DNA from: Candidatus Roizmanbacteria bacterium RIFCSPHIGHO2_02_FULL_40_13b
GTDB taxonomy: Bacteria > Patescibacteriota > Microgenomatia > UBA1406 > HO2-37-13b
Assembly: GCA_001789445.1 (NCBI GenBank)
Contig: MFZQ01000005.1
Span: forward strand, 1-37,822
Length of the DNA stretch: 37,822 nucleotides
Direction of reading: 5' to 3'
Notes under the pieces: model-generated
Seen by the model: only the letters and a program-made list of their open reading frames with translations
Databases searched by the model: none
What the model was told of the DNA's origin: nothing
Part shown: one piece after another, positions 16,661-34,026 of the stretch
How the letters are laid out: every line of letters begins with the position of its first letter
Numbering within the stretch: the stretch's first letter is position 1
Program-made: the position numbers and the translations under genes

Positions 16661-16876
16661 ATGAAATATACTTCTCCACTTACTCAACTTACAGATCAAC
16701 TTACGAGAAAACGTAAGGACTTAGGTATATCAAAGAAAGAACTTGCGAGAGAAGCTCAAACTGGAGAAGCAATTATTACTCGACTTGAACGAGGTAATTT
16801 AAATCCCTCTATTCGACTATTACAGAGCATTGCTCGAGCAATGAATACGCACTTCACGATAAATTTTCAGCGATAA
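16661..16876 (+). CDS. XRE-family helix-turn-helix transcriptional regulator
   Basis: LTRKRKDLGISKKELAREAQTGEAIITRLERGNLNPSIRLLQSIARAMNTHFTINF. Confidence 0.9.
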   Translation: MKYTSPLTQLTDQLTRKRKDLGISKKELAREAQTGEAIITRLERGNLNPSIRLLQSIARAMNTHFTINFQR

Positions 16877-17505
16877 TGGTATATGTATTTCTTGATGAAA
16901 GTGGTGACTTAGGTTTTAAGAAATCTTCAAGTACATGGTTTTTATTTACGGTTGCAATAACCCCCGACAAAAGAGCACTAGAACGAGTTGTGAAAAGAAT
17001 TCGGAGAACGCTGAGAAAAAAACATAAAAATCTTGGAGAACTACACGCATATCATGCTGATAGTGCAACGCGAAGACGAGTCTTACAAGAGATTTCATCA
17101 TTAAAGGATATACACATAGTATGTGTGATTCTGAATAAGAAAAAAGTATATATTGACTTACAAAATCAAAAAAATTATCTCTATAATTACACTGCAAATA
17201 TCCTATTGGATAGACTTTGTAATAAAAAAACACTAAAAACAAATGAGTTAATAGAGCTATATGTTGATAGAAAAGATACAAATAAAAAACTTCAAGAAAA
17301 ATTTATCATTTACATCTCAGAAGCGATGAATAAAAGAAGACTGGGTGCTTTTTCAATAAAACTACACAAATCAAACGAAAATAAGTCGTTACAAGCGGTT
17401 GATTTTATTTCATGGGCGATATTTCGCAAATATGAAAGAGGGGATTATGAGTTTTATGAAATTATCAAAGCTAAAATAATTGACGAAAAGATTCTATTTC
17501 CTTAA
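16876..17505 (+). CDS. DUF3800-like protein
   Basis: MVYVFLDESGDLGFKKSSSTWFLFTVAI N-terminus typical of DUF3800; LQAVDFISWAIFRKYERGD near the C-terminus; start codon overlaps the HTH stop (TAATG). Confidence 0.85.
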   Translation: MVYVFLDESGDLGFKKSSSTWFLFTVAITPDKRALERVVKRIRRTLRKKHKNLGELHAYHADSATRRRVLQEISSLKDIHIVCVILNKKKVYIDLQNQKNYLYNYTANILLDRLCNKKTLKTNELIELYVDRKDTNKKLQEKFIIYISEAMNKRRLGAFSIKLHKSNENKSLQAVDFISWAIFRKYERGDYEFYEIIKAKIIDEKILFP

Positions 17506-18156: not shown

Positions 18157-21100
18157 ATGGATCCTCAACCATCAAACGATCAAGATTCTGCCAAAGACCA
18201 TGCAGTCAACGCTGATTCACCCCTGCCCGAGCTAAAACCTACACTTTTACTGAAATCACAAGAGCCGGTAACCATTAAGGATGAAAAAGATGGTCTAGTT
18301 ATTCCGTATGGAGAAAATACCGTAGTAATTGGAGCCGGGATTGATGAAATTCAAATCCTAGATAAATCGGGCAAGAAAATAGAAGGACTAGATATTACCC
18401 AGACAATGATTTTCGATTGGGATTCAATAAGTAATATTAGAAATGGAAGATTTAGTACATTGGTTCAAACGCATGATCTTAACAATCCAAGTGACCGTTT
18501 TTTAGGTGTTAATGATTTTCCATTACATCTTCAGGCATTTGCTACTTCATTTATTAAAAGGGGTGGTACTAGGAGAGTTGGAATTCCAGCTCGATCGTGG
18601 AAACTTGATGTAATGAAAAGTGGAAAAATGGATGAACGCACAGATGATGGGTACATTCTAATATACCAAAAGGATACTAAACAGTTTATAGCATTTCAAA
18701 CAAAGACAGATGCGGGAGTAGATTTGCCTCCGAGGAATTGGAAGAGATTTGATAGTGTGGATGTATTTATGGATGAATTACCTGAAAATATAAAATCAGA
18801 ATTGAAAGAACTAAATAATGATGCAGTTAATTATAAAAGAATTTCTACAGATCATGATGTTCTTGTGTATGATGATCGTGTTGTTGTGGCAAAACTTGGT
18901 CAGAGTGCCGAAGTGCCACCTGACTTTGTCGATAAAATAATTGGTGTTGGTACAAATATTGTGTCTGATCCTAGAGATACGCAAACAATTTATTATTGTA
19001 AAACAACTAATCCAGAAAGTATATTTCGTCTTGATACAAATGGAGATCCTGCAAGTTGGCATACAGAAGCAGTTGATTTACCACAACAGTATACCGAGAT
19101 TACCAATTTACAAATTGACCCATCAGGACACTTTTTTACCTTTGAATCAAATGAGGAATTCGTTATTTTATCTAGAGATGATCTGACTGAAGTTGCAAAA
19201 ATTCCTAATGTATTACATGGGAAATTAGATCAACACGGAAGAGTGTATGGAATTAACGATGAAGGATGTATGGTCATCTACGATCCAAATTTTCAAGATG
19301 TTGCGCTTGAATTGGAAAAAAGAAGAATAGCACGATTATCCCAAGGATTACGGAGTGATCTATTTGTAAGTGAATCAGCGACCACGCCAGTAGAAAGTGC
19401 TGATCAATTTCAGCATTTGGAGGCTGTTCGCGCGGATCTTGAAGGAACGTTTCAAGCACAACTTCAAACGATTACTCGGCTTGAGGATATGGCAACGGTT
19501 ACTGATGGTCTTAGTCGATTACGTACTCGTCTTCAAAAAGAGGGACTACAACCTGCTCAAATCTCCTTCATCACGGGTGGAATTCAAGATTCAATACGGG
19601 ACGCAGAACACGTACTAGCGGCTCCTGTAGTTGCCCAAAGTTTAGCAGATTTAGATACAAAATTATCTGGAACCTTAACAATAACAACGCTTGCCGAAGC
19701 GAGAGATGATCTTGCTAAATTAAGATCTATGGACAATTTGGTTGATGATGCAACGAGGGCACAGATACGAGCGCTGGAAAATCAGCTCGGGCAACAATCG
19801 ACTGAACTGTTTCGTACAGAAGGAGAAGTAATTACAAGAGATGTTGGTGAAATGGTAGGTGGAGTACGTGCAGAATTGGATGCAATAGTAAGTATGCCTG
19901 ATTTTGCAGATTGGCAAGAATTTAGATTACCACAATTGATTAGTAGACTTGGTGCACTCGCAAATGATTGCCCATTGGAAGCTCACGAAACCCAAAGAAG
20001 TATTTTAGCCGCACGCAGACAACTTCAAGAACTTTCTAAGGAATATGAAACACGGTTTAAAGAAAACTATGCAAAAGTTCGGGAACATGCATCCGAAATA
20101 ATAGATGAACGGGCTGGGCTCATTAGGATAGATATGCATTCGGCAATAGACAGACTTCGAGGAAGGGGTTTTGGTGATCGAGCACAATTTGAAGCATATA
20201 CGGGATCAAGTGAAGCACTCGGACTTCTGCGAACTGAGATTGAAGAGCTCGCACGACAAGATCCTGATGCAGCACGAGAACTAGATAAGGAGCTCAAAAT
20301 AGGAATTGCGAGATTGATGTCAGAAGTTGAACGAGGAGGGCTAACAACGATAGCAGAAACAGGTCAACAAATGATTCTATTTAGAGATACGCTTTTCCCA
20401 CGATGGGAAGGAAAGGTACATGAAAAGGTTCAGAGGCACGTTGATTTGATCTTCATGCCTGATGAGCGAACTAAAGGGCCAGGAGTAAGGGCAGATCAGA
20501 TTTTTGGAGATGTCGGAATAATGGAGATAAATTCGAGAGGTCATCTAGAAAAAAGAAGGATATATCAAGGAATGCAAAACGAAGACGAATGGCGATATGG
20601 CTCTGTACGAACTAAAGGAGCTGATGTATTCCCAACATATGTAAGTCAAGCAGACTATCGACGAATCAAGCAGAGTTATGCAGATTGGAATAGAGGAGAT
20701 GCTTCCACAATACGAAGAACGTTACATGATACGAGGCAAGAGCTACGTGATTTATACAAAGAACGACAACTAGTTGGTAGTCGAGAAGCTGCTGTTGATG
20801 AAGCCTGGAGAGAACGATATCGAGTCTTAATGGATTCATATGCTCAGTACGCAGTTGACAATCATGTTTCAATTCTTTCAAGAATTGATAGACTTCGCAA
20901 CGCTCCTGAGACCAAATTTACGAATGGTGCTGGGTATGTGCCAGAATGGCAAAATCACTGGACAACTGACGAAACTACAGAACAGTATCTAGATGAAATG
21001 GCACAGGTGGCAAAAATGCAACTTGATTTGCAAGAAGGCCTACTTAACCTCAAAGGTCATGCGGGAACAGGAAAAGATATACTCGTCAAAATGTTTTGTA

Positions 21101-22017
21101 ATAGATCAAATAGACAATATTTTCCAATTGACTGTTCGAAATGGACTACTGAATTTGAGCTTTCAGAAGATGTAGTGCTTGAAGCGCAGGACGGTGCATC
21201 AAGAACAGTTAAAGTACCCTCAATCGTACTCAATGCCATAACTACCCCTGGGGCAGTTATGTACTTTAATGAATTTAATGCGATGCCAGAACAAGCGCAA
21301 ATTTTCCTTCATGGCCTGATGGATGAAAAACGAACCCTTACACTTAAAACTAGTTCGGGTAAAGCGGTTAGAGCATTGAGTAGTGTTCTACTTATGGGTT
21401 CAATGAATCCAGGGTATCCAGGAACATTTAATCCACAATTTGCTACAAAGAGCAGAATGGTTGGATTGGAGATAGATTATCCTCCATTGTACAGAGAAAG
21501 TAACTCTGATGATCCTAATCCAAATCCCCCTATTAATTCTGCTGAAGCGTTACGAATTGCACGACAGGTGGATTCTCTTTCAGATTTCACCTTTGATCCA
21601 AACCCAGAACACAATGAGTTTGTACAAATATGGGATAGACATATAAATGGAATCCAAAATGGTGCTACTGATTTGACTACAGAACAAAAATTTGACCTTG
21701 AAGCGATCTTAACGATGGTTGAATTTGCACATAAACTTAGAGAGGGATTCATATTAAAATTCGATAAAGCAAAAGCATCAGCAATTCCAAGAGGGACATT
21801 ATTGATAGATCAACCTATAACAGGTAGAGAGCTGAGAAGAATGGCCGAGGTCCTAAGTAAAATGTCGGCTGAAGAAAAAGCTACATCTAGTCCAGAAGGA
21901 GTTGTAAGAGATTTGATTGAGCAAATTTTCCTTCCCAATATTGACAAGAGAGATGAAAAAGATGAAATAAAAACAGCTATGGCGACCTGGACATCAACCA
22001 AGCGACCAGCTGCATAA
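18157..22017 (+). CDS. Giant AAA+ ATPase of MoxR/CbbQ/NorQ-like (AAA_5) type with long N-terminal beta-rich and coiled-coil region
   Basis: LNLKGHAGTGKDILVKMF (P-loop), AVMYFNEFNAMPEQAQIFLHGLMDE (Walker B region), SVLLMGSMNPGYPGTFNPQFATKSRM (sensor-1/Arg region). Confidence 0.85.
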   Translation: MDPQPSNDQDSAKDHAVNADSPLPELKPTLLLKSQEPVTIKDEKDGLVIPYGENTVVIGAGIDEIQILDKSGKKIEGLDITQTMIFDWDSISNIRNGRFSTLVQTHDLNNPSDRFLGVNDFPLHLQAFATSFIKRGGTRRVGIPARSWKLDVMKSGKMDERTDDGYILIYQKDTKQFIAFQTKTDAGVDLPPRNWKRFDSVDVFMDELPENIKSELKELNNDAVNYKRISTDHDVLVYDDRVVVAKLGQSAEVPPDFVDKIIGVGTNIVSDPRDTQTIYYCKTTNPESIFRLDTNGDPASWHTEAVDLPQQYTEITNLQIDPSGHFFTFESNEEFVILSRDDLTEVAKIPNVLHGKLDQHGRVYGINDEGCMVIYDPNFQDVALELEKRRIARLSQGLRSDLFVSESATTPVESADQFQHLEAVRADLEGTFQAQLQTITRLEDMATVTDGLSRLRTRLQKEGLQPAQISFITGGIQDSIRDAEHVLAAPVVAQSLADLDTKLSGTLTITTLAEARDDLAKLRSMDNLVDDATRAQIRALENQLGQQSTELFRTEGEVITRDVGEMVGGVRAELDAIVSMPDFADWQEFRLPQLISRLGALANDCPLEAHETQRSILAARRQLQELSKEYETRFKENYAKVREHASEIIDERAGLIRIDMHSAIDRLRGRGFGDRAQFEAYTGSSEALGLLRTEIEELARQDPDAARELDKELKIGIARLMSEVERGGLTTIAETGQQMILFRDTLFPRWEGKVHEKVQRHVDLIFMPDERTKGPGVRADQIFGDVGIMEINSRGHLEKRRIYQGMQNEDEWRYGSVRTKGADVFPTYVSQADYRRIKQSYADWNRGDASTIRRTLHDTRQELRDLYKERQLVGSREAAVDEAWRERYRVLMDSYAQYAVDNHVSILSRIDRLRNAPETKFTNGAGYVPEWQNHWTTDETTEQYLDEMAQVAKMQLDLQEGLLNLKGHAGTGKDILVKMFCNRSNRQYFPIDCSKWTTEFELSEDVVLEAQDGASRTVKVPSIVLNAITTPGAVMYFNEFNAMPEQAQIFLHGLMDEKRTLTLKTSSGKAVRALSSVLLMGSMNPGYPGTFNPQFATKSRMVGLEIDYPPLYRESNSDDPNPNPPINSAEALRIARQVDSLSDFTFDPNPEHNEFVQIWDRHINGIQNGATDLTTEQKFDLEAILTMVEFAHKLREGFILKFDKAKASAIPRGTLLIDQPITGRELRRMAEVLSKMSAEEKATSSPEGVVRDLIEQIFLPNIDKRDEKDEIKTAMATWTSTKRPAA

Positions 22018-22029
22018 TTCTATAGTTAT

Positions 22030-25000
22030 ATGGATGATGAAAGTAGAGAGCGGTCACAAAACCCCCCGACTAAAGATAATTTTGCACGAGAAAAGATTTT
22101 TTTAGCAGAACAAGCTGCTGATGGTCTTACAGTTGTGCCGGGTACATCGTGGGCATTTCATTACCCGCATGGTATCGCAGCCCGTACTACCACACTTGCA
22201 GAATTGCTTACGGGTAAAGTGACATCTGAAGATGTAGTTGCAGATTTACGACCTGATGCTTTTACCTATGCTTTGGCTGATCTTGAAGGACAAGGATTAT
22301 CTTCGGTTGCAGGGAGAGTGCGAGATGTATCCAATTATGTGAAGCATTATGACTATGCTCGATTTGCGCAGTTTGTTTCAGGGATGAATGGCACAGGTAC
22401 AACTCCAGAAGTAGCACAATCTCTGTATGATGGAATAGCCCAAAGCAGAATTCGCAGAAAAATGATAGACGCCTATGGATATACTGGTAGAAAACAAATA
22501 GAAGAAGCACTTAGATTGGACGCAGAACGAACGGTACAACAAATGAGTAGTCTTCCCACTGTTGAACGAGTATTATCAGCCTTGAAAATGAATTGGATGG
22601 CCGGGGATCAATTTGCAAGATCGGAACAAAGAGACCAGGTTGTAGAACAGTTATCCCCCGAAGAACGTGAATTATATGACCAATTGAAGGATGCGTATCA
22701 AGAGTATGTGAAAAAGGGTGATGAAACAGCGTATACCAAATTAGTAGCTGGAATTAAAGAGAGTATTCCAAGTATTCAACAAAAGCCACAAACGTCAGAA
22801 AGAGATGAAAGTCAAGAACAACTCGAGCAAGATTTAGAACCATATAAAGATCAAGCAGTTCCTCCTGGTACTGAAGGAGACCCAGCAATACCGCCTGAAG
22901 ATTCTGATGAATACCATAGTTCTCCTCCGATATCAGGAGAATCCAAAGAACAGGCTGGCACCAGACCCTTTTTTGAAATCACTCCAAGCGGTTCAAGTAC
23001 GAAACCACTAACGGGGTATTATTCTTCAGGAAGAAAAAGTTACTACGATATTGATAGGAAAACATGGAGCAAAAAGAAACAATTACGTGCGTACACCTCA
23101 TCACTTCCAGGTACCCAGCGGCAAACAATATCGGGTATAACAAATGCAGGTCTAAAATCTGTACCAATACCAAACGGATACGACCTTGATCTCTCTTCAC
23201 TCACGTTTTCAGGCGCATCACCAGAGATTTTTCGAGATCAAAATGGGTGCTTTTACATAAAGACAGATGGAAATAGTACTTTTTCAATTGATTTTCTAAA
23301 ACAAGATATTCCATTCGTTGGACCACCAATTGCAGAAGATAGCACGCCAATTCATGTAGGACACCTTTCAGGTGATACAGAAAAAATGATGAGCGCTGTT
23401 ACTGGTGGCATCTTGGAAAAATCTGAACAGCTTCGTCGCTATTTGCTTTCAAAACATTTTTATCCTGGAGATGGAGATTTACAAATGGCCCAAGCATTAC
23501 AATATAAATTACGAAGCGAATCTACGGGCGATACGTATGTTCAAAATCTTGATACATCAGAATACTTAGAATGTTACTCTGCAAATACTCTCTATATTGC
23601 AATGCTACGAAAAGTGGGGATTTCAGCACGACTTGTGGTTGGACATAAAGTGGAAGGAGCAAAAGATGGTAAAGCCATAATCGATTCTCAAACTGGTCAT
23701 GCTTGGACTGAAGTTTGGGATGGTACTGCCTGGAGGAGAATGGACGCAACTCCACGACCAAAACAACAGAAAAAGGATCAGCAAGGTGACTCTGATAGTC
23801 CTACTGAAGAAGCGCAAGATGGTGGAGTTGAAAAACAAGACGGTGGTGCTGAAAAACAAGATGGTGAACAGGGACAAATGGGGGAAGCTTCAGACCAGGA
23901 TATAGCAGAGGGAGAATCAGAACTTGATAATGCTCAGCAACTTTCTGAACAAATGAGTGCGCAAAAGCAGAGTTTGGATCAAAGACTTGAGGATGCGAAG
24001 TCATTTCAAGATGTAAAAGATCTACTAAAAGAAGCAGAGGACTCTGAATTATTTGATGATATGAAAGAAGATGTAAAGGAACGGGCGCAAGCAAAAGAAG
24101 AACAAATGAAAGAAGTTATTAAAGAAAGTTTGGACGAAATGGTTCAAGATGGATTTTTGGATGAAGAGCGTAGGGAGGAACTTGAAAAACAACTTGAGGA
24201 AAGTCAGTTACAGGAACTTGATCGTATTCGAGAGCAAATTGAAAGAGAAAGCAGTGCATATAATGAATATCAAGAAATTAAAGAAGAAGTTGCACCACTA
24301 GTGGATAAATGGTTCGACTATTTCGTAGAAAGGTTACCAAAACAGGATGAAGTTGATGTGGACGAGGATGCCCTTACTCGACAAGGATCCTTTAACAGGC
24401 ATTCAGTAATGAAACCAAGAAATTTACTGTTTGGTACGGTTAAAAATCCTCGTATCATTCGACCCTCAATTAAACCTAAATTCTTAGCTTCTATTATGGT
24501 TGATGTAAGCGGATCTATGAAAGGGGATAAACTCACAATGGCACGCAAACAATTGATATTTTATAACGAACTCTTTTCAAGAATTAGTAGTGAATTTGGT
24601 TTTATACGATATGCAAATACTATGTTTTCTGATACGGTAACTGAACTCAAAGGATTTGACCAGGACTATGAAAGTCCAATTAGACATGACTGGGGTGATG
24701 GATCAAGATCGACAATTAAAGCTCGACTTATGCAAGCTCTTCATACACAGGGAGGTACAAATATGTTGCCCGCAATTCAAAAAGCAGCAGCAGATTTAAA
24801 CAGAGAGATGCTTGAATACCCAGATTATGCTTCTGCATTTTATTTTATTGGTGATGGAGAAGATACTCAAGGAAATTCTCAACAAATCAGCGAATTTCTA
24901 CGGTTGCGTGAAGAAGAAAGGGGATTTGGAGGTCATATGGTATCGGCAATAATGCTCGGGGACGAACCACAAAGAATAGAATTAGCGAAAATCTTTGGAG

Positions 25001-25104
25001 ACGAAAATACAACCGTTGCACCTAATTTCGATACGCTCATAGAACAAAGCATGTATAAGTTTGATGAAGACATAGAGGCATATCTTGCAGATAAAACAAT
25101 ATAA
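22030..25104 (+). CDS. Fused transglutaminase-like + von Willebrand factor A (VWA) domain protein
   Basis: TGase-like triad: LECYSANTLYIAMLRKVGISARLVVGHK (Cys), GHAWTEVWD (His), WRRMDATP (Asp); VWA MIDAS: IMVDVSGSMKGDKLTMARKQL ... LHTQGGTNMLPAIQ ... YFIGDGEDTQ. Confidence 0.88.
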   Translation: MDDESRERSQNPPTKDNFAREKIFLAEQAADGLTVVPGTSWAFHYPHGIAARTTTLAELLTGKVTSEDVVADLRPDAFTYALADLEGQGLSSVAGRVRDVSNYVKHYDYARFAQFVSGMNGTGTTPEVAQSLYDGIAQSRIRRKMIDAYGYTGRKQIEEALRLDAERTVQQMSSLPTVERVLSALKMNWMAGDQFARSEQRDQVVEQLSPEERELYDQLKDAYQEYVKKGDETAYTKLVAGIKESIPSIQQKPQTSERDESQEQLEQDLEPYKDQAVPPGTEGDPAIPPEDSDEYHSSPPISGESKEQAGTRPFFEITPSGSSTKPLTGYYSSGRKSYYDIDRKTWSKKKQLRAYTSSLPGTQRQTISGITNAGLKSVPIPNGYDLDLSSLTFSGASPEIFRDQNGCFYIKTDGNSTFSIDFLKQDIPFVGPPIAEDSTPIHVGHLSGDTEKMMSAVTGGILEKSEQLRRYLLSKHFYPGDGDLQMAQALQYKLRSESTGDTYVQNLDTSEYLECYSANTLYIAMLRKVGISARLVVGHKVEGAKDGKAIIDSQTGHAWTEVWDGTAWRRMDATPRPKQQKKDQQGDSDSPTEEAQDGGVEKQDGGAEKQDGEQGQMGEASDQDIAEGESELDNAQQLSEQMSAQKQSLDQRLEDAKSFQDVKDLLKEAEDSELFDDMKEDVKERAQAKEEQMKEVIKESLDEMVQDGFLDEERREELEKQLEESQLQELDRIREQIERESSAYNEYQEIKEEVAPLVDKWFDYFVERLPKQDEVDVDEDALTRQGSFNRHSVMKPRNLLFGTVKNPRIIRPSIKPKFLASIMVDVSGSMKGDKLTMARKQLIFYNELFSRISSEFGFIRYANTMFSDTVTELKGFDQDYESPIRHDWGDGSRSTIKARLMQALHTQGGTNMLPAIQKAAADLNREMLEYPDYASAFYFIGDGEDTQGNSQQISEFLRLREEERGFGGHMVSAIMLGDEPQRIELAKIFGDENTTVAPNFDTLIEQSMYKFDEDIEAYLADKTI
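23809..23871 (+). repeat. Three degenerate 21-bp tandem units in the transglutaminase-VWA linker
   Basis: Encodes EAQDGGV / EKQDGGA / EKQDGEQ. Confidence 0.7.
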
Positions 25105-25109
25105 ATTGC

Positions 25110-25168
25110 TTATCCTCCCGTTCCGACTAAAAATATTGCCTGCCAGGGGCGGTAGTTTGAGTAAAAAT
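25110..25168. repeat. 59-bp direct repeat, copy A (duplicate of the VanW gene 3' end)
   Basis: ttatccTcccgttccgactaaaaatattgcctgccaggggcggtagtttgagtaaaaat; 58/59 identical to 25886-25944. Confidence 0.93.
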
Positions 25169-25885: not shown

Positions 25886-25944
25886 TTATCCCCCCGTTCC
25901 GACTAAAAATATTGCCTGCCAGGGGCGGTAGTTTGAGTAAAAAT
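25886..25944. repeat. 59-bp direct repeat, copy B (forms the intact 3' end of the VanW gene)
   Basis: Begins exactly at the VanW-like stop codon; 58/59 identical to copy A. Confidence 0.93.
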
Positions 25945-27347: not shown

Positions 27348-28868
27348 ATGGATGAAGATAAAAATGCGCCTGCTACTCCACAGCCAATATACGAAACAAT
27401 TGTCGAGTCTGAACCAGGCACAAGTCAACCCACAACACCGCCTAATGAGGTCCCAAGCCAACCTCCGATTGCATCCGAACCGGAAATAGTACCTGAAGAG
27501 ATTGGTGAAGAGGCGACTCCCGAGACATTCAAACCACCGCTTATTAACCTTGATGATGCTGGCGAGGGCGCAAGTAATAAGACTCGGTTTATCATAATTG
27601 GCGCCGCACTGTTTTTCTTTGTACTAATTTTCTTCGGGCTTTTTTTACTTGTCAGAGGTCTCGGTGGAGCTCCAGTCAAAAAAGTTTCACTGGAGTATTG
27701 GGGTTTATGGGAAGACAAGGCCATAATGGACCCTATTATTAAAGAATATGAGCGGCAAAATAAAGGAGTAACTATACATTACGACAAGAAAGATCCCCAT
27801 AGTTACCGTGAAAAGCTTCTGACGCGTTCCAAAGAAGGGAATGGACCCGATATATTCCGTTTTCATAATACCTGGCTTCCGACTATAAAAGATGTCCTAG
27901 CACCGCTTCCTAAAACGATTATGTCCAATAGTGAATATGAATCCACTTTTTATCCAGTTACTAAAAAGGACTTAAAAGTTGGAGACACCTATTTTGGAAT
28001 TCCGCTTGAAATAGATGGCCTTGTATTGCTTTATAACGATGATTTATTTAAAACTGCAGGAATTCAAGTAGCTCCAAAGACATGGAATGACATTCTTAAT
28101 TATTCTGCAAAAATAACAGTTGCGGGTCCTTCGGGAATTGTCACTTCAGGTATAGCATTAGGAACAGCTGAAAATATTAATCATTTTTCAGAAATTTTGG
28201 GTTGGATGATGTTACAAGCAGGAGCGAAACTTTCTGACTTATCGAGCTCAGAAGCTGTCGATATACTATCCTCATACGAACGTTTTGCCCAAGCTCCCGA
28301 CCCACGATGGGATGAAAATATGCCAAATTCAACAACGGCGTTCATTCAGGGTAAGGTGGGGATGATTATCGTTCCTTCATGGGAAATCCTGCCTATAAAA
28401 ACGGTTGCGCCTGACCTCAACTTTAAAGTTGCCCCACTACCAGTTGTGCCTGGAAATAAACAGATAAGCTTGGCAGATTATTGGGTTGAAGGCGTTTCTC
28501 GGTATCAAAAGCCTGAAAATCAACAAGCTGCATGGAAATTTTTGCGTTATTTGAGTCAAAAAGATACAATGGTAAAGATGTATGAACTAGCAACCAAAAC
28601 ACGTATCTTTGGAGAACCATATTCTCGAGTTGATTTAGCTTCAAAGCTTGCTCAAGACAAGTATATTGGACCAGTAATCATGCAAGCGAATGTGATGCAA
28701 AGTTTGCCCGTTATGAGTAGAACATACGACAATGGACTCAATGATGCAATTGTTGGGTACTTGAAAAATGCAGTAAATGATACGGTTAAGGGAGTCTCTG
28801 CTCAGGAAGCGTTTGATACGGCTGGAAAGGGAATTACTGAAGTATTTAACCGATTTGATATAAAGTAA
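27348..28868 (+). CDS. Extracellular solute (sugar-type)-binding protein with Pro/Glu-rich N-terminal segment and single TM anchor
   Basis: TM FIIIGAALFFFVLIFFGLFLLV; VSLEYWGLWEDKAIMDPIIKEYERQNKGVTIHY...; GKVGMIIVPSWEI; AAWKFLRYLSQKD. Confidence 0.88.
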   Translation: MDEDKNAPATPQPIYETIVESEPGTSQPTTPPNEVPSQPPIASEPEIVPEEIGEEATPETFKPPLINLDDAGEGASNKTRFIIIGAALFFFVLIFFGLFLLVRGLGGAPVKKVSLEYWGLWEDKAIMDPIIKEYERQNKGVTIHYDKKDPHSYREKLLTRSKEGNGPDIFRFHNTWLPTIKDVLAPLPKTIMSNSEYESTFYPVTKKDLKVGDTYFGIPLEIDGLVLLYNDDLFKTAGIQVAPKTWNDILNYSAKITVAGPSGIVTSGIALGTAENINHFSEILGWMMLQAGAKLSDLSSSEAVDILSSYERFAQAPDPRWDENMPNSTTAFIQGKVGMIIVPSWEILPIKTVAPDLNFKVAPLPVVPGNKQISLADYWVEGVSRYQKPENQQAAWKFLRYLSQKDTMVKMYELATKTRIFGEPYSRVDLASKLAQDKYIGPVIMQANVMQSLPVMSRTYDNGLNDAIVGYLKNAVNDTVKGVSAQEAFDTAGKGITEVFNRFDIK

Positions 28869-28869
28869 T

Positions 28870-31083
28870 ATGTTAGATTTTTTTAAAAAAAAGGGTGGAG
28901 AAACACGAGAGCTATACATGGGGTTAGTCTTAAAAGAAAGTGACGGACTTGTCCTTCTTCTTGAAATTGATACAGAAACAAAAACAATTCATACACTTGA
29001 TCAAAAAAAATTTACTTACACAAATTCATGGGAACATCTGACCGAAGATGTTGATCAAGTACTTTTTGAACTCGAGAAGAGAAATAGTGTTGAAATTGAA
29101 AAAACAGTCCTTTTTTTGTATTCACATCTCATCGACCAAGAAAAAAAATCAGTAAAACCGCAGTATAAAACAAAAATCAGGGATATGGCTTCCGAGCTTG
29201 GACTCGAAATTGTTGGGTATGCCCAGTTTCATGAGGCGGTCTCCTTATATTATCACCAAATAGAGATGACTCCTCTATCTGCAATTATTATTGAACTTGA
29301 TGGAGCCGCAGTCAGTATTTTTGTATATAAAGCGGGCGCGTTACAGCATGCGCAGACCATTGCGCAAACAAATGATTTTATCGCTGATCTTGAAGCAGTA
29401 TTTAAAAGCCAGAATGGATCATTTTTACCAACTCGCATGATACTTTATGATTCAACTGATTTGGAAGATATGTCAGATAAAATCATGAACCATACCTGGG
29501 ATGAGAAACTTTTTATCCAAATTCCAAAAGTTGAAATTCTACCCGAAGAACAACTAACCATCGCCCTCACAGCCTGTTTTTCAAAACAGATGTTTGAAGA
29601 TATTCCTACGTCTTCAATTGGGGAAGAAGAATCTCGCGTACTTGAAGCCGCTAGCGCTGGAGCACTTATTGACTCAACAGACGAGTCAAAGCAAGATCTT
29701 GAGCCCGAACAAGTTACCAAAGAATCTGCTTCTCCACCTCTCGATCCCTCCCCTCCACCACTCGAGCCTCCTATCTCCGGCTTTCTTGTCGGCGAAGATA
29801 TTGCGCTCCAAGAGGGAGAAGATGCAGACTCTGATATCGTTGAGGAAATGGCCGTGGAGATTCCAAAATCAGCTTATAATGATTTATTAAATAATGACCT
29901 ACCCGTAAAAAAACATATGAAACTGCCCAGCTTTACCTTCCCATCACTTTCTCTACCAAAAATATCTTTTAAGTATGGAATGCCTGCATTGGTCATAATT
30001 GGATTTGTACTTATTTTTATTTCTCTTTTTTCGCTTTTCTATCTGTTCCATAAAGCAACCATAACTCTCTATTATAAAACACCAACAATAGTAAAAGATG
30101 TCGTTATTGGAGGTATTGCAGTTGAGAAAATGACAAAACAAACAAGTGATTCAGAGAAGGTTAATGCAACAGGTAAAAATACCATTGGGGAAAAGGCAAA
30201 AGGTGAAATAACTGTTTACAATCTTGAAAAACAAGAAAAAACGATTAAAAAAGGAACTATGCTAAAAACAGATGCTGGTGTGGCATTTACTCTTGATTCT
30301 GACGTTAAAGTGGCATCAGCATCTTCATCAACAACAAGTGGAGGAGATGTAACGATTGTCACCGGAAAACAAAAAGTAAATAGTACGGCTTCTGAAATTG
30401 GTGAGACGGGGAACATTTCCAAGGACACAAAACTTACCTTTGATGGGATTAACTCGGATGTTCAGCGTGCGATTGCATTTGCTACTTTTACCGGGGGATC
30501 TAAAAAAAATATTACGACTGTTTCGCGAAACGATTACGACTTATTAAAGAAAAAGGTAGTGTCAAAAATCACCTCCCAGGCAAATAGCCTATTAAAGGAT
30601 TCATCTCCTAATAAAAAAGTTCTTACTCAACTTATTCAAACAAAATTTATAAGTGAAGCGTACTCTTCTGAAGTTGGTGAAGAAGCAACAGATGTTAGTC
30701 TCAATGCGAAAGTAGATGTTCTACTGTATATCTACGATGTTGTACAAGTAAGAGACAGAATAAAAAGTACCATTACCGATGTTATTCCTCAAAATTATAA
30801 ACTTGAATCATCAAAAATACTGTACAGCGTCAAAAAAGCGGTTCAAAAAGATACTAAAGTCACACTAACGCTTCATATTGTAGCTTCGCCAGAATATGAT
30901 ATTGATACAAAAAAAGTTGTTGTTGCCGCCCGAGGTACATCACAAGTGGCTCTTGAAGATAGTCTTAAGAACATATTTCATACAAGTGGATATCAAATAA
31001 GTATAGATTCAGTGCTCCCATTTTTAAAAAACAGGTTACCATTTTTTGAGAAAAATATAACAGTTGCTATTGTTTCAGAATAA
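28870..31083 (+). CDS. Membrane protein with N-terminal ASKHA/PilM-like domain and C-terminal baseplate J-like extracellular region
   Basis: N-term LSAIIIELDGAAVSIFVYKAGALQHAQTI; TM ALVIIGFVLIFISLFSLFYLF; KGEITVYNLEKQEKTIKKGTMLKTDAGVAFTLDSDVKV typical of J-like proteins. Confidence 0.65.
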   Translation: MLDFFKKKGGETRELYMGLVLKESDGLVLLLEIDTETKTIHTLDQKKFTYTNSWEHLTEDVDQVLFELEKRNSVEIEKTVLFLYSHLIDQEKKSVKPQYKTKIRDMASELGLEIVGYAQFHEAVSLYYHQIEMTPLSAIIIELDGAAVSIFVYKAGALQHAQTIAQTNDFIADLEAVFKSQNGSFLPTRMILYDSTDLEDMSDKIMNHTWDEKLFIQIPKVEILPEEQLTIALTACFSKQMFEDIPTSSIGEEESRVLEAASAGALIDSTDESKQDLEPEQVTKESASPPLDPSPPPLEPPISGFLVGEDIALQEGEDADSDIVEEMAVEIPKSAYNDLLNNDLPVKKHMKLPSFTFPSLSLPKISFKYGMPALVIIGFVLIFISLFSLFYLFHKATITLYYKTPTIVKDVVIGGIAVEKMTKQTSDSEKVNATGKNTIGEKAKGEITVYNLEKQEKTIKKGTMLKTDAGVAFTLDSDVKVASASSSTTSGGDVTIVTGKQKVNSTASEIGETGNISKDTKLTFDGINSDVQRAIAFATFTGGSKKNITTVSRNDYDLLKKKVVSKITSQANSLLKDSSPNKKVLTQLIQTKFISEAYSSEVGEEATDVSLNAKVDVLLYIYDVVQVRDRIKSTITDVIPQNYKLESSKILYSVKKAVQKDTKVTLTLHIVASPEYDIDTKKVVVAARGTSQVALEDSLKNIFHTSGYQISIDSVLPFLKNRLPFFEKNITVAIVSE

Positions 31084-31085
31084 TT

Positions 31086-31829
31086 ATGCCGCTCTATCAC
31101 TATGTTAAAACCAAGTATTCGAGAAAAAAGGCCATTGTTGGCATAATTTCATATATTTCACTCACAATTGGAACACTCTTTTTGTTTTGGTCATTTTATC
31201 CAATTATTTCTTTTGAAATATATTCACGTTTTTTTTCAGAAAAGACTCTTTTTACTGCAATTGCGGCAAACCAAACGACAGCGCTTACTACAGCGGCTAC
31301 GTTAAAGGGAAATTCAAACATTTTCTCGACAAATTTGTCGGATTATACAAAAGCAGGTATTTGGTTTCCAAGCATTCATCAAACTACTGAAATTCCAGTA
31401 AAAGCAGGAAAAAGTATTAAGGAATATTCGCTCTCTATCCCAAAACTAAACATTACAAATGCTCGAGTAATTGTGGGTGGAGAAGACCTCAAAAAAGGAC
31501 TTGTACATTATTTGCCTCGATGTTTTCCAGGGGACCCATGCAATATCGCAATTTTTGGACACTCCTCACTTCCTCAACTCTATGATCCGAAGAATTACAC
31601 CACGACTTTTACGTATCTTCCGTCTCTCAAGAAGGGAGATAAGATTTATGTGGATTTTGATGGGGCAAAATATGAGTATGATATTTCTGACGCATTCATC
31701 GTAACGCCCGAAGAAGTATCTATTTTAGATGAAATGTACGATGATTCCTACCTTACCCTCGTAACCTGTGTCCCCCCAGGCACAGCGTGGAGTAGGTATG
31801 TTGTACGGGCAAAAATCGTAAAAGTATAG
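31086..31829 (+). CDS. Sortase-family transpeptidase
   Basis: N-terminal TM; CNIAIFGHSSLP (His), YLTLVTCVPPGTAWSRYVVRAKIV (Cys, Arg). Confidence 0.92.
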   Translation: MPLYHYVKTKYSRKKAIVGIISYISLTIGTLFLFWSFYPIISFEIYSRFFSEKTLFTAIAANQTTALTTAATLKGNSNIFSTNLSDYTKAGIWFPSIHQTTEIPVKAGKSIKEYSLSIPKLNITNARVIVGGEDLKKGLVHYLPRCFPGDPCNIAIFGHSSLPQLYDPKNYTTTFTYLPSLKKGDKIYVDFDGAKYEYDISDAFIVTPEEVSILDEMYDDSYLTLVTCVPPGTAWSRYVVRAKIVKV

Positions 31830-31830
31830 C

Positions 31831-31859
31831 TTGTAGTATCCTATAAAATATGGTAGAAT
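31831..31859 (+). promoter_or_regulatory. Promoter of the PBP gene with extended -10
   Basis: TTGTAG (31831-31836), 17-nt spacer, TGG-TAGAAT (-10 31854-31859); ATG at 31873 gives a very short leader. Confidence 0.6.
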
Positions 31860-31872
31860 ACACGCCTATCTC

Positions 31873-34026
31873 ATGGCTAATAAGGAGCTTTACATCAAGT
31901 ATATTCGCGTAATTACTTTACCAATTGTGAAGGCGTTTTTTTATGCTGCATTATTTCTCATTTTTATCGGAGATATCGTCATTGATTTCATTACCTTTGT
32001 TCTAAAAACTGTTGCAAATGTGCTATTATTTCTACCTCGAAAAGCAAACCATATTCCATACAAAATCAAGTATTTTATACTCGGAATTGGTATCACACTC
32101 CTAGTTTTTTTTGTATACCAAAGCTACATCTTTGTAAAAACACTCCCTACTCCAAAGCTCATTGGAACATTAAACTATTCAGTTTCAACCAAAATTCTTG
32201 ATAGAAATGGGTCACTTCTCTATGAAATTTTTCATGATCAAAACAGAACACCCGTAAAAATAGATTCGTTACCAAAATACGTTTCACAAGCAACTATTGC
32301 TATTGAGGATCAGGCTTTTTACGAACACCCGGGAATATCTTTGTATGGGGGGATACTTCGGGCATCAAAAGAAATGCTCTTTGACCGATCGCTTCAGGGT
32401 GGATCGACAATTACACAACAACTTGTAAAGTCAGCACTTCTTACCCCAGAACGAACCATTACTCGAAAGGTAAAAGAAGCAATCCTCGCCATATGGACAG
32501 AGCATATGTACACTAAAAAGCAAATTTTAGAAATGTATCTCAACCAAGTTCCGTATGGAGGATCTTCCTACGGGATTGAGAAAGCCTCACAAACCTTTTT
32601 TGATAAAAGTAGTCATGATTTAACGATTGCGCAAGCCGCATTTTTAGCTGGTCTTCCCCAAGCTCCATCGTTATATTCACCCTACAGTAATCCAAAATAT
32701 GCTCTAGATCGTCGCAATGATGTTTTGAAGAAAATGTCTGAACTTGACTTCATAAATAAGAAACAATACCAATCTGCTCTTCAAGAACCGCTTACTATTA
32801 AATCGCCAACACAATATATTAGGGCTCCACACTTTGTGTTTTATGTGAAATCAGTTCTTGAAAAAATGTATGGAATTGCGCGCGTTGAAGCTGGAGGATT
32901 ACGGGTGGTTACCAGTCTTGATTTAAAAACACAGGAACAAACAGAAAATATTTTGTCTGATGAAATTGCCAAAATAGAGTATTTACATGTAACAAACGGT
33001 GCGGTTCTTGTTACAGCGCCCAAAAATGGTGAAATACTAGCAATGGTAGGATCAGTAGATTATTTTAACAATCCAGAGGGGGCGTTTAATGTGACCACGG
33101 CACTTCGTCAACCTGGTTCATCTATTAAACCGCTTATGTATTCACTTGCGCTTGAAAAAGGATATACTGCCGCAACACAAATAAGTGACACACCTATCAC
33201 CTATCAAACTTTAGGTGGATTACCATACCAACCGGTAAATTATGATGGGAGATACCATGGTAATGTAACGCTTCGTACAGCCCTTGCAAGTTCATACAAT
33301 ATTCCAGCGGTAAAAGTCTTAAATAATCTTGGAGTAGATCAGTTTATCGATCACGCACATAAAATGGGAATTTCCACATGGGAAGATAAAAGTCGTTTTG
33401 GACTTTCACTTACACTGGGAGGGGGAGAGGTGACGATGACTGATATGGCAACAGCATTTGGAGTATTTGCAAATGGAGGAAATAAAGTTCCTGTTAACCC
33501 ATTGTTATCAGTTTCTGATTACAATGGAAACTCGCTGTATCAACAACGTACCAATAATGATGTACTCGGTGTAATTTCAAAAGCAGTTGCGTTTATTATT
33601 TCTGATATTTTATCTGATAATAATGCGCGAGCTGGCGCTTTCGGAGCTCATTCAAGTCTTGAAATTCCTGGATATAAAGTTGCAGTGAAAACGGGAACTA
33701 CAAATAGTAAACGAGATAATTGGACAATTGGATACACCCCAACTTATCTAACAGTAGTATGGGTTGGAAACAATGATAATTCACCTATGAATCCAGCACT
33801 TACTTCTGGAGTTACGGGTGCCGCCCCTATTTTTAATCGAGTCATGTCGAATGTATTAAATAGTAATGTTCTTAACTATCAAAATATAAAAGGCGGCTTT
33901 ATACTGCCTGATGGAATTGTTTCCAAATCGTGTATGGGAAAGAATCCAGAGTACTTTATTAAAGGAACAGAGAACAAAGTCAATTGTTTTGCTTCGAAAT
34001 TGAGCCCGACGCCTACTTCCCACTAA
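31873..34026 (+). CDS. Class A penicillin-binding protein (transglycosylase/transpeptidase)
   Basis: AIEDQAFYEHPGISLYGG...LQGGSTITQQLVKSALLTPERTITRKVKE; RQPGSSIKPLMYSLAL; KTGTTNSKRDNWTIGYTP. Confidence 0.95.
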   Translation: MANKELYIKYIRVITLPIVKAFFYAALFLIFIGDIVIDFITFVLKTVANVLLFLPRKANHIPYKIKYFILGIGITLLVFFVYQSYIFVKTLPTPKLIGTLNYSVSTKILDRNGSLLYEIFHDQNRTPVKIDSLPKYVSQATIAIEDQAFYEHPGISLYGGILRASKEMLFDRSLQGGSTITQQLVKSALLTPERTITRKVKEAILAIWTEHMYTKKQILEMYLNQVPYGGSSYGIEKASQTFFDKSSHDLTIAQAAFLAGLPQAPSLYSPYSNPKYALDRRNDVLKKMSELDFINKKQYQSALQEPLTIKSPTQYIRAPHFVFYVKSVLEKMYGIARVEAGGLRVVTSLDLKTQEQTENILSDEIAKIEYLHVTNGAVLVTAPKNGEILAMVGSVDYFNNPEGAFNVTTALRQPGSSIKPLMYSLALEKGYTAATQISDTPITYQTLGGLPYQPVNYDGRYHGNVTLRTALASSYNIPAVKVLNNLGVDQFIDHAHKMGISTWEDKSRFGLSLTLGGGEVTMTDMATAFGVFANGGNKVPVNPLLSVSDYNGNSLYQQRTNNDVLGVISKAVAFIISDILSDNNARAGAFGAHSSLEIPGYKVAVKTGTTNSKRDNWTIGYTPTYLTVVWVGNNDNSPMNPALTSGVTGAAPIFNRVMSNVLNSNVLNYQNIKGGFILPDGIVSKSCMGKNPEYFIKGTENKVNCFASKLSPTPTSH

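Follow-up and report, generated by a model that had tools for sequence, protein, structure and literature searches.

The genomes of CPR bacteria are minimal, yet the lineage considered here devotes about 7 kb to a pair of genes that distant lineages have exchanged. What kind of machine do these genes encode, and what would it be for? The pair lies in a stretch of 37,822 nt (the window, meaning the whole piece of DNA that was analysed) of an 858 kb genome. A previous sequence-only reading had described a MoxR/CbbQ-like AAA+ ATPase followed by a protein in which a transglutaminase-like (TG) domain and a VWA domain are fused, and had suggested a cytoplasmic machine for remodelling, proteolysis or cross-linking.

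The gene pair and its surroundings

The two open reading frames have exactly the lengths and the 12-nt gap given in that reading. The features recognised within them are the following.

18157..22017, + strand: gene 1, ATPase with predicted propeller, helical and AAA+ regions, 1286 aa (ORF; AAA_5; 9 homologues, 36-53% identity)
18292..19281, + strand: predicted beta-propeller, residues ~46-375, putative sensor (AlphaFold strands, Foldseek propeller matches, fast divergence)
19294..20331, + strand: long alpha-helical region, residues ~380-725 (AlphaFold)
21049..21459, + strand: AAA_5 (CbbQ/NorQ-like) ATPase domain core (Pfam; CbbQ/NorQ sequence similarity)
21055..21078, + strand: variant Walker A GHAGTGKD, Asp974 replacing Thr/Ser (Asp invariant, 10/10)
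21262..21273, + strand: variant Walker B YFNE, Asn1038 replacing Asp, catalytic Glu1039 retained (invariant, 10/10)
22030..25104, + strand: gene 2, transglutaminase-like/VWA fusion, 1024 aa (ORF; 10 homologues, 47-76% identity)
23476..23748, + strand: transglutaminase-like catalytic domain, with Cys515 at 23572-23574, His557 at 23698-23700 and Asp572 at 23743-23745 (Pfam; invariant triad; TgpA structural match)
24475..25101, + strand: C-terminal VWA domain, with MIDAS DVSGS at 24502-24516, T910, D942 and a conserved C-terminal tail (Pfam, homologue alignment, structural matches)

The pair is located downstream of the S10-spc-alpha ribosomal operon, which makes this a chromosomal contig for which a binning error is unlikely. 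No tRNA adjoins the pair in the window, and no recombinase gene could be recognised next to it there. Foreign GC, considered as a mark of transfer, is not visible, the GC content of the pair (0.35-0.43) being close to that of the flanks. Neither protein has an evident signal peptide or transmembrane segment, as had been noted (the maximum 19-residue Kyte-Doolittle hydropathy is 1.12 and 1.16, respectively), and both are probably cytoplasmic. No curated NCBIfam model covers either protein, and the papers found contain no description of the pair in CPR bacteria.

Some other features of the window deserve mention. A 59-nt direct repeat (98% identical) occurs just past the stop codon of gene 2 (25110-25168) and at the 3' end of a VanW-like gene (25886-25944), and may be a sign of duplication or insertion of the intervening 0.7 kb. 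Close upstream of the pair there is a DUF3800 gene (16876-17505) with a weak PADLOC candidate-defence match; a DUF3800-like protein (judged by eye) is also encoded upstream of a distant TG-VWA gene at another locus (L015, 9035-9847; loci are designated here by L numbers). At 27348-34026, adjoining genes encode a solute-binding protein, a weakly Baseplate_J-like protein of 737 aa, a sortase and a class A PBP, a possible surface cluster.

The ATPase and its Walker motifs

The AAA_5 domain was detected at residues 965-1101 of the first protein (E 2.6e-12, 47.3 bits against a Pfam cut-off of 22) and, by sequence, its closest solved AAA domains are those of CbbQ and NorQ, so that the class originally assigned to it holds. 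An AlphaFold model built with 10 homologues has beta strands at residues ~46-375 and long helices at ~380-725, both with moderate model confidence. Propeller proteins, of WD40-like or other kinds, account for most of the top Foldseek matches, several of them with a helical solenoid after the propeller (IFT-A, clathrin, COPI); the TM scores are low, so that they support the fold class but not its detail. With this moderate confidence, the beta-rich, possibly propeller-like region and the helical region suspected ahead of the ATPase are borne out by the model. The AAA part has low confidence (pLDDT <50), also in the region of the MoxR helix-2 insert, through which the sequence aligns with CbbQ and NorQ.

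The Walker substitutions of the ATPase had gone unmentioned in the sequence-only reading. In all ten ATPases Walker A reads GHxGTGKD, with Asp974 at the position of the usual Mg-binding Thr/Ser, and their Walker B, YFNE, has Asn1038 in place of the expected Mg-binding Asp; the canonical combination of a GK[TS] Walker A and a DE Walker B is found in none of the ten. The ATPase retains the P-loop lysine, the catalytic Glu1039, the sensor-1 Asn and the Arg-finger position. Among distant relatives, the P-loop of L043, L044 and L062 ends in GKN and their Walker B is DE, while L049 has a GKD P-loop and an IE Walker B. The P-loop Asp is found only where the Walker B Asp has been lost, with two different replacements (NE and IE), and the GKN relatives keep DE, a distribution that suggests compensation rather than decay. 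The Mg-binding acid may thus have been relocated from Walker B to Walker A, as judged from few independent lineages. In the GKD/NE combination, nature would have provided an experiment on Mg-ATP binding by AAA+ proteins.

The TG-VWA protein

In the second protein, Transglut_core was found at residues 483-573 (E 1.5e-11, 45 bits against a Pfam cut-off of 23) and VWA_2 at residues 822-943 (E 7e-4, below threshold by itself), both in a single chain of 1024 aa. The order along the protein is N-terminal domains, charged linker, VWA and a conserved C-terminal tail. The Cys515-His557-Asp572 triad is invariant in 11 of 11 homologues; it is complete, as had been read, and the codon of the Cys is where it had been placed. 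As for the VWA domain and its MIDAS, which Pfam alone leaves below threshold, the DxSxS motif is almost fully conserved, and T910 and D942 fully so, in the 11 homologues, and the structural matches of the protein model, headed by TgpA, continue with Rea1-MIDAS and NorD; the previous assignment is upheld by these data. One copy (L006, 9977-13093) lacks a 10-residue stretch spanning DVSGS, yet the remainder is ~90% identical to L004.

Distribution and transfer of the pair

A search of 84,980 species genomes led to ten relatives, all of them CPR bacteria or MAGs. The co-conservation of the two genes, proposed beforehand as a check, was found in every locus where it could be seen: the pair has an identical order in the 9 of 9 relatives with enough upstream sequence, L007 ending at a contig edge. 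Neighbouring genes vary, except for a common downstream gene near the Levybacteria copies L002 and L003, and no third gene is conserved across the loci, the homology being confined to the two genes. The cassette is rare even in near relatives. No close copy exists among the 95 nearest relatives, and in the class, apparently the one that also comprises the Levybacteria and Daviesbacteria relatives, near-full or long matches were found in 5 of 373 genomes (host included), with distant matches in ten. A phage or plasmid origin was considered and rejected, since neither protein matched viral contigs, the TG-VWA protein had no match in plasmids and the ATPase none in phages; the plasmid matches of the ATPase were generic MoxR-like domains only.

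In the three loci L004, L006 and L009, nucleotide homology begins no more than ~40 nt ahead of the start codon of the ATPase gene and stops ~20 nt or less past the TG-VWA stop. Their TG-VWA proteins are 85-91% identical versus 52-62% for ribosomal protein L2, and L008 and L009 show the reverse (L2 68% identical, TG-VWA 50%). Vertical inheritance was rejected by AU tests in both directions: on the TG-VWA data the L2 clade L008-L009-L011 fails (p 4e-4), as does the TG-VWA clade L004-L006-L009 on L2 plus AlaRS (p 3e-5; L2 alone, p 6e-4). Since homology ends within ~40 nt and the trees reject vertical descent, the pair travels between lineages as a two-gene cassette, a transfer signal that possibly misbinned MAG contigs would inflate. 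Neither this mobility nor the rarity of the cassette appeared in the sequence-only reading. Serine recombinases are found near or inside the loci L007, L015, L016 and L050 (the last three judged by eye).

Divergence of the propeller

A way to look at the role of the N-terminal extension is to compare its divergence with that of the other regions. In L004, L006 and L009 the propeller is 55-73% identical, and its first half 43-57%, versus 88-95% in the AAA and TG regions. The propeller therefore evolves much faster than the remainder, in a sensor-like manner. The large sensor-like extension proposed earlier stands as an extension; we would recast it more precisely as a fast-evolving predicted propeller located at the N terminus, for which a sensor role appears plausible from its divergence. 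Positive selection could not be shown, synonymous sites (dS) in the propeller being saturated in two of the three close pairs; with such saturation, segment exchange and very fast divergence are both possible. The propeller tree groups L004 with L005, which hints at an exchange of this segment; the remaining regions reject that grouping (p 0.004), but the propeller by itself is compatible with the other one (p 0.13).

Related modules

Profile searches retrieved a sister family (L043, L044, L046 and L049). Its propeller-AAA ATPase, homologous to the one described here, is encoded downstream of an HExxH-VWA protein. This VWA protein carries an N-terminal HEAGH/HEAAH...ED domain in place of TG, a swap absent from the sequence-only reading. 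No Pfam family name could be given to the HExxH domain; its motif suggests a metallopeptidase. The likeness lies in the ATPase (E 1e-39 to 1e-51 in three full-length copies) and in the coil-VWA region, detectably homologous in L043 and L044; the differences are the reversed gene order and the GKN/DE (L043, L044) or GKD/IE (L049) motifs.

A looser family (L015, L048, L050, L051, L052 and L016) comprises proteins of ~870-890 aa (the L016 protein being interrupted) with a TG-like region, and a VWA is detected or visible in several of them. The P-loop of the neighbouring ATPase is canonical wherever this gene is on the contig. In L016 (7535-10936) the TG-VWA gene continues in frame into an apparent serine recombinase just past its MIDAS, an arrangement that resembles interruption by an integrative element. 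Finally, in L062 (1018-10932) an AAA (GKN/DE) and a VWA protein form a pair separated by several repeat-rich, leucine-rich-like proteins, possibly a further module type.

Proposed function

We consider the chances to be about even that the pair is a horizontally mobile cytoplasmic AAA+/VWA machine that gates a TG-fold cysteine hydrolase, most likely a protease, with a role in conflict or defence. The ATPase would form a MoxR-type ring, and its fast-evolving N-terminal propeller would recognise a trigger. By homology, the ring would engage the C-terminal VWA of the partner as NorQ engages NorD, while the VWA MIDAS would hold an acidic residue of the target. Remodelled with the energy of ATP, the long charged linker that joins TG to VWA could then license the Cys-His-Asp TG-fold enzyme, or position it on the target, where it would most likely act as a protease. 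The replacement of TG by HExxH in the sister family favours proteolysis over cross-linking. The biological role would most likely be anti-phage, anti-element or stress-triggered, and such a conflict role is favoured by the mobility and patchy spread of the cassette, by the variability of the propeller and by two neighbourhoods of defence type. These neighbourhoods (2 of 11 loci) comprise, in L007, a UG-type RT together with a DnaG-like protein and, in L004, restriction-modification; most loci lie amid housekeeping genes, so the signal is weak. The order in L007 (3143-12585), downstream of the TG-VWA gene, is a UG-type reverse transcriptase, a Toprim/DnaG-like RT-associated protein and a serine recombinase.

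The alternative that survives best, although we regard it as unlikely, is a chaperone for maturation or assembly, comparable to NorQD, CbbQO or RavA-ViaA, in which TG would trim or modify a single dedicated client while a complex is assembled or a cofactor inserted, with no part in conflict. The similarity to NorQ/CbbQ and NorD speaks for it, as does the fact that the MoxR-vWA pairs studied so far work mostly in assembly and cofactor insertion (PMC7159879), but no client gene linked across the loci was found, and a patchy distribution, two-gene transfer and a hypervariable propeller would be unusual for a housekeeping chaperone. Next, and also doubtful, comes an ATPase that hydrolyses poorly or not at all and serves as a nucleotide-bound scaffold or switch, silencing the TG enzyme as long as the propeller has bound no trigger. 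The replaced Walker residues, invariant in 10 of 10, could indeed mean weak or absent hydrolysis and would then count against an ATP-driven machine; the retained lysine, Glu1039, sensor-1 Asn and Arg-finger position, together with the apparent compensation between the two motifs, stand against this reading. A true protein transglutaminase or TgpA-kind envelope factor that cross-links or processes surface proteins is highly improbable, for although TgpA is the best structural match of the TG region and a transglutaminase in vitro (PMC3507681), it resides in the membrane and has its TG domain in the periplasm, whereas both proteins here lack evident signal peptides and transmembrane segments, and the sister family replaces TG by a metallopeptidase-like domain.

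Returning to the gated hydrolase, a broader and more tentative reading, to which we give less than an even chance, is that these loci belong to a new class of modules in CPR bacteria, mobile peptidases gated by AAA+ ATPases. Each would combine a propeller sensor and a MoxR ring having a relocated Mg ligand with a peptidase-VWA effector, either thiol (TG) or metallo (HExxH), the two being interchangeable, and would act in defence or in conflict between elements. Should the pair be a conflict system, it would need only two genes, with a peptidase that can be swapped, and would add to the little that is known of such systems in this group.

Comparison with known systems

NorQ/NorD and CbbQ/CbbO resemble the pair in having the closest solved AAA+ sequences, adjacent genes and a partner with a C-terminal MIDAS VWA, NorD being also a structural match. 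A VWA partner with MIDAS in the same operon, as in the MoxR clade, was found in 9 of 9 relatives. However, NorQ and CbbQ have a canonical GKS/GKT Walker A and the Walker B Asp, and have neither propeller nor TG domain, while the ATPase described here is several times larger, with both Walker ligands replaced. In the cryo-EM structure of NorQD the VWA domain of NorD inserts a finger into the AAA+ pore and its C-terminus binds the ring at the post-sensor-1 loop; as ATP is used, force twists the linker that leads to the N-terminal domain (PMC13036017). The MIDAS residues of NorD are required for function and dispensable for ring binding (PMC9976466). The TG-VWA protein repeats this arrangement of N-terminal domains, linker, VWA and C-terminal tail, and we propose that its TG-fold enzyme would be controlled by a force exerted on the linker.

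TgpA shares the TG fold with its Cys-His-Asp, but it is membrane-anchored and has no VWA, whereas our protein is predicted to be soluble (maximum hydropathy 1.16, with no membrane anchoring of the TgpA type) and is VWA-fused. Against PADLOC 2023 there was no convincing full-length system match, only weak local ones to TerY (4e-4) and LmuB (2e-3).

Another published parallel is that of the MoxR-vWA ternary conflict systems, which carry a third component such as VMAP, iSTAND, FtsH or a beta-propeller/TPR protein (Kaur et al. 2020, PMC7159879). They share with our pair a core of MoxR and vWA, TG-like peptidase and beta-propeller modules in some cases, the swapping of effectors and a patchy spread (PMC7159879). 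They have a third gene, and the pair here has no conserved one; their subsystem 4 places the propeller C-terminal to the vWA, here it is on the ATPase; their propeller subsystem often has the P-loop GXXXTAKS, here it is GHAGTGKD; and, unlike in them, TG is fused here N-terminally to the vWA. Given these differences, the pair may work like the ternary systems without being one of them, and the best reading is that it is logically similar to them, not a member.
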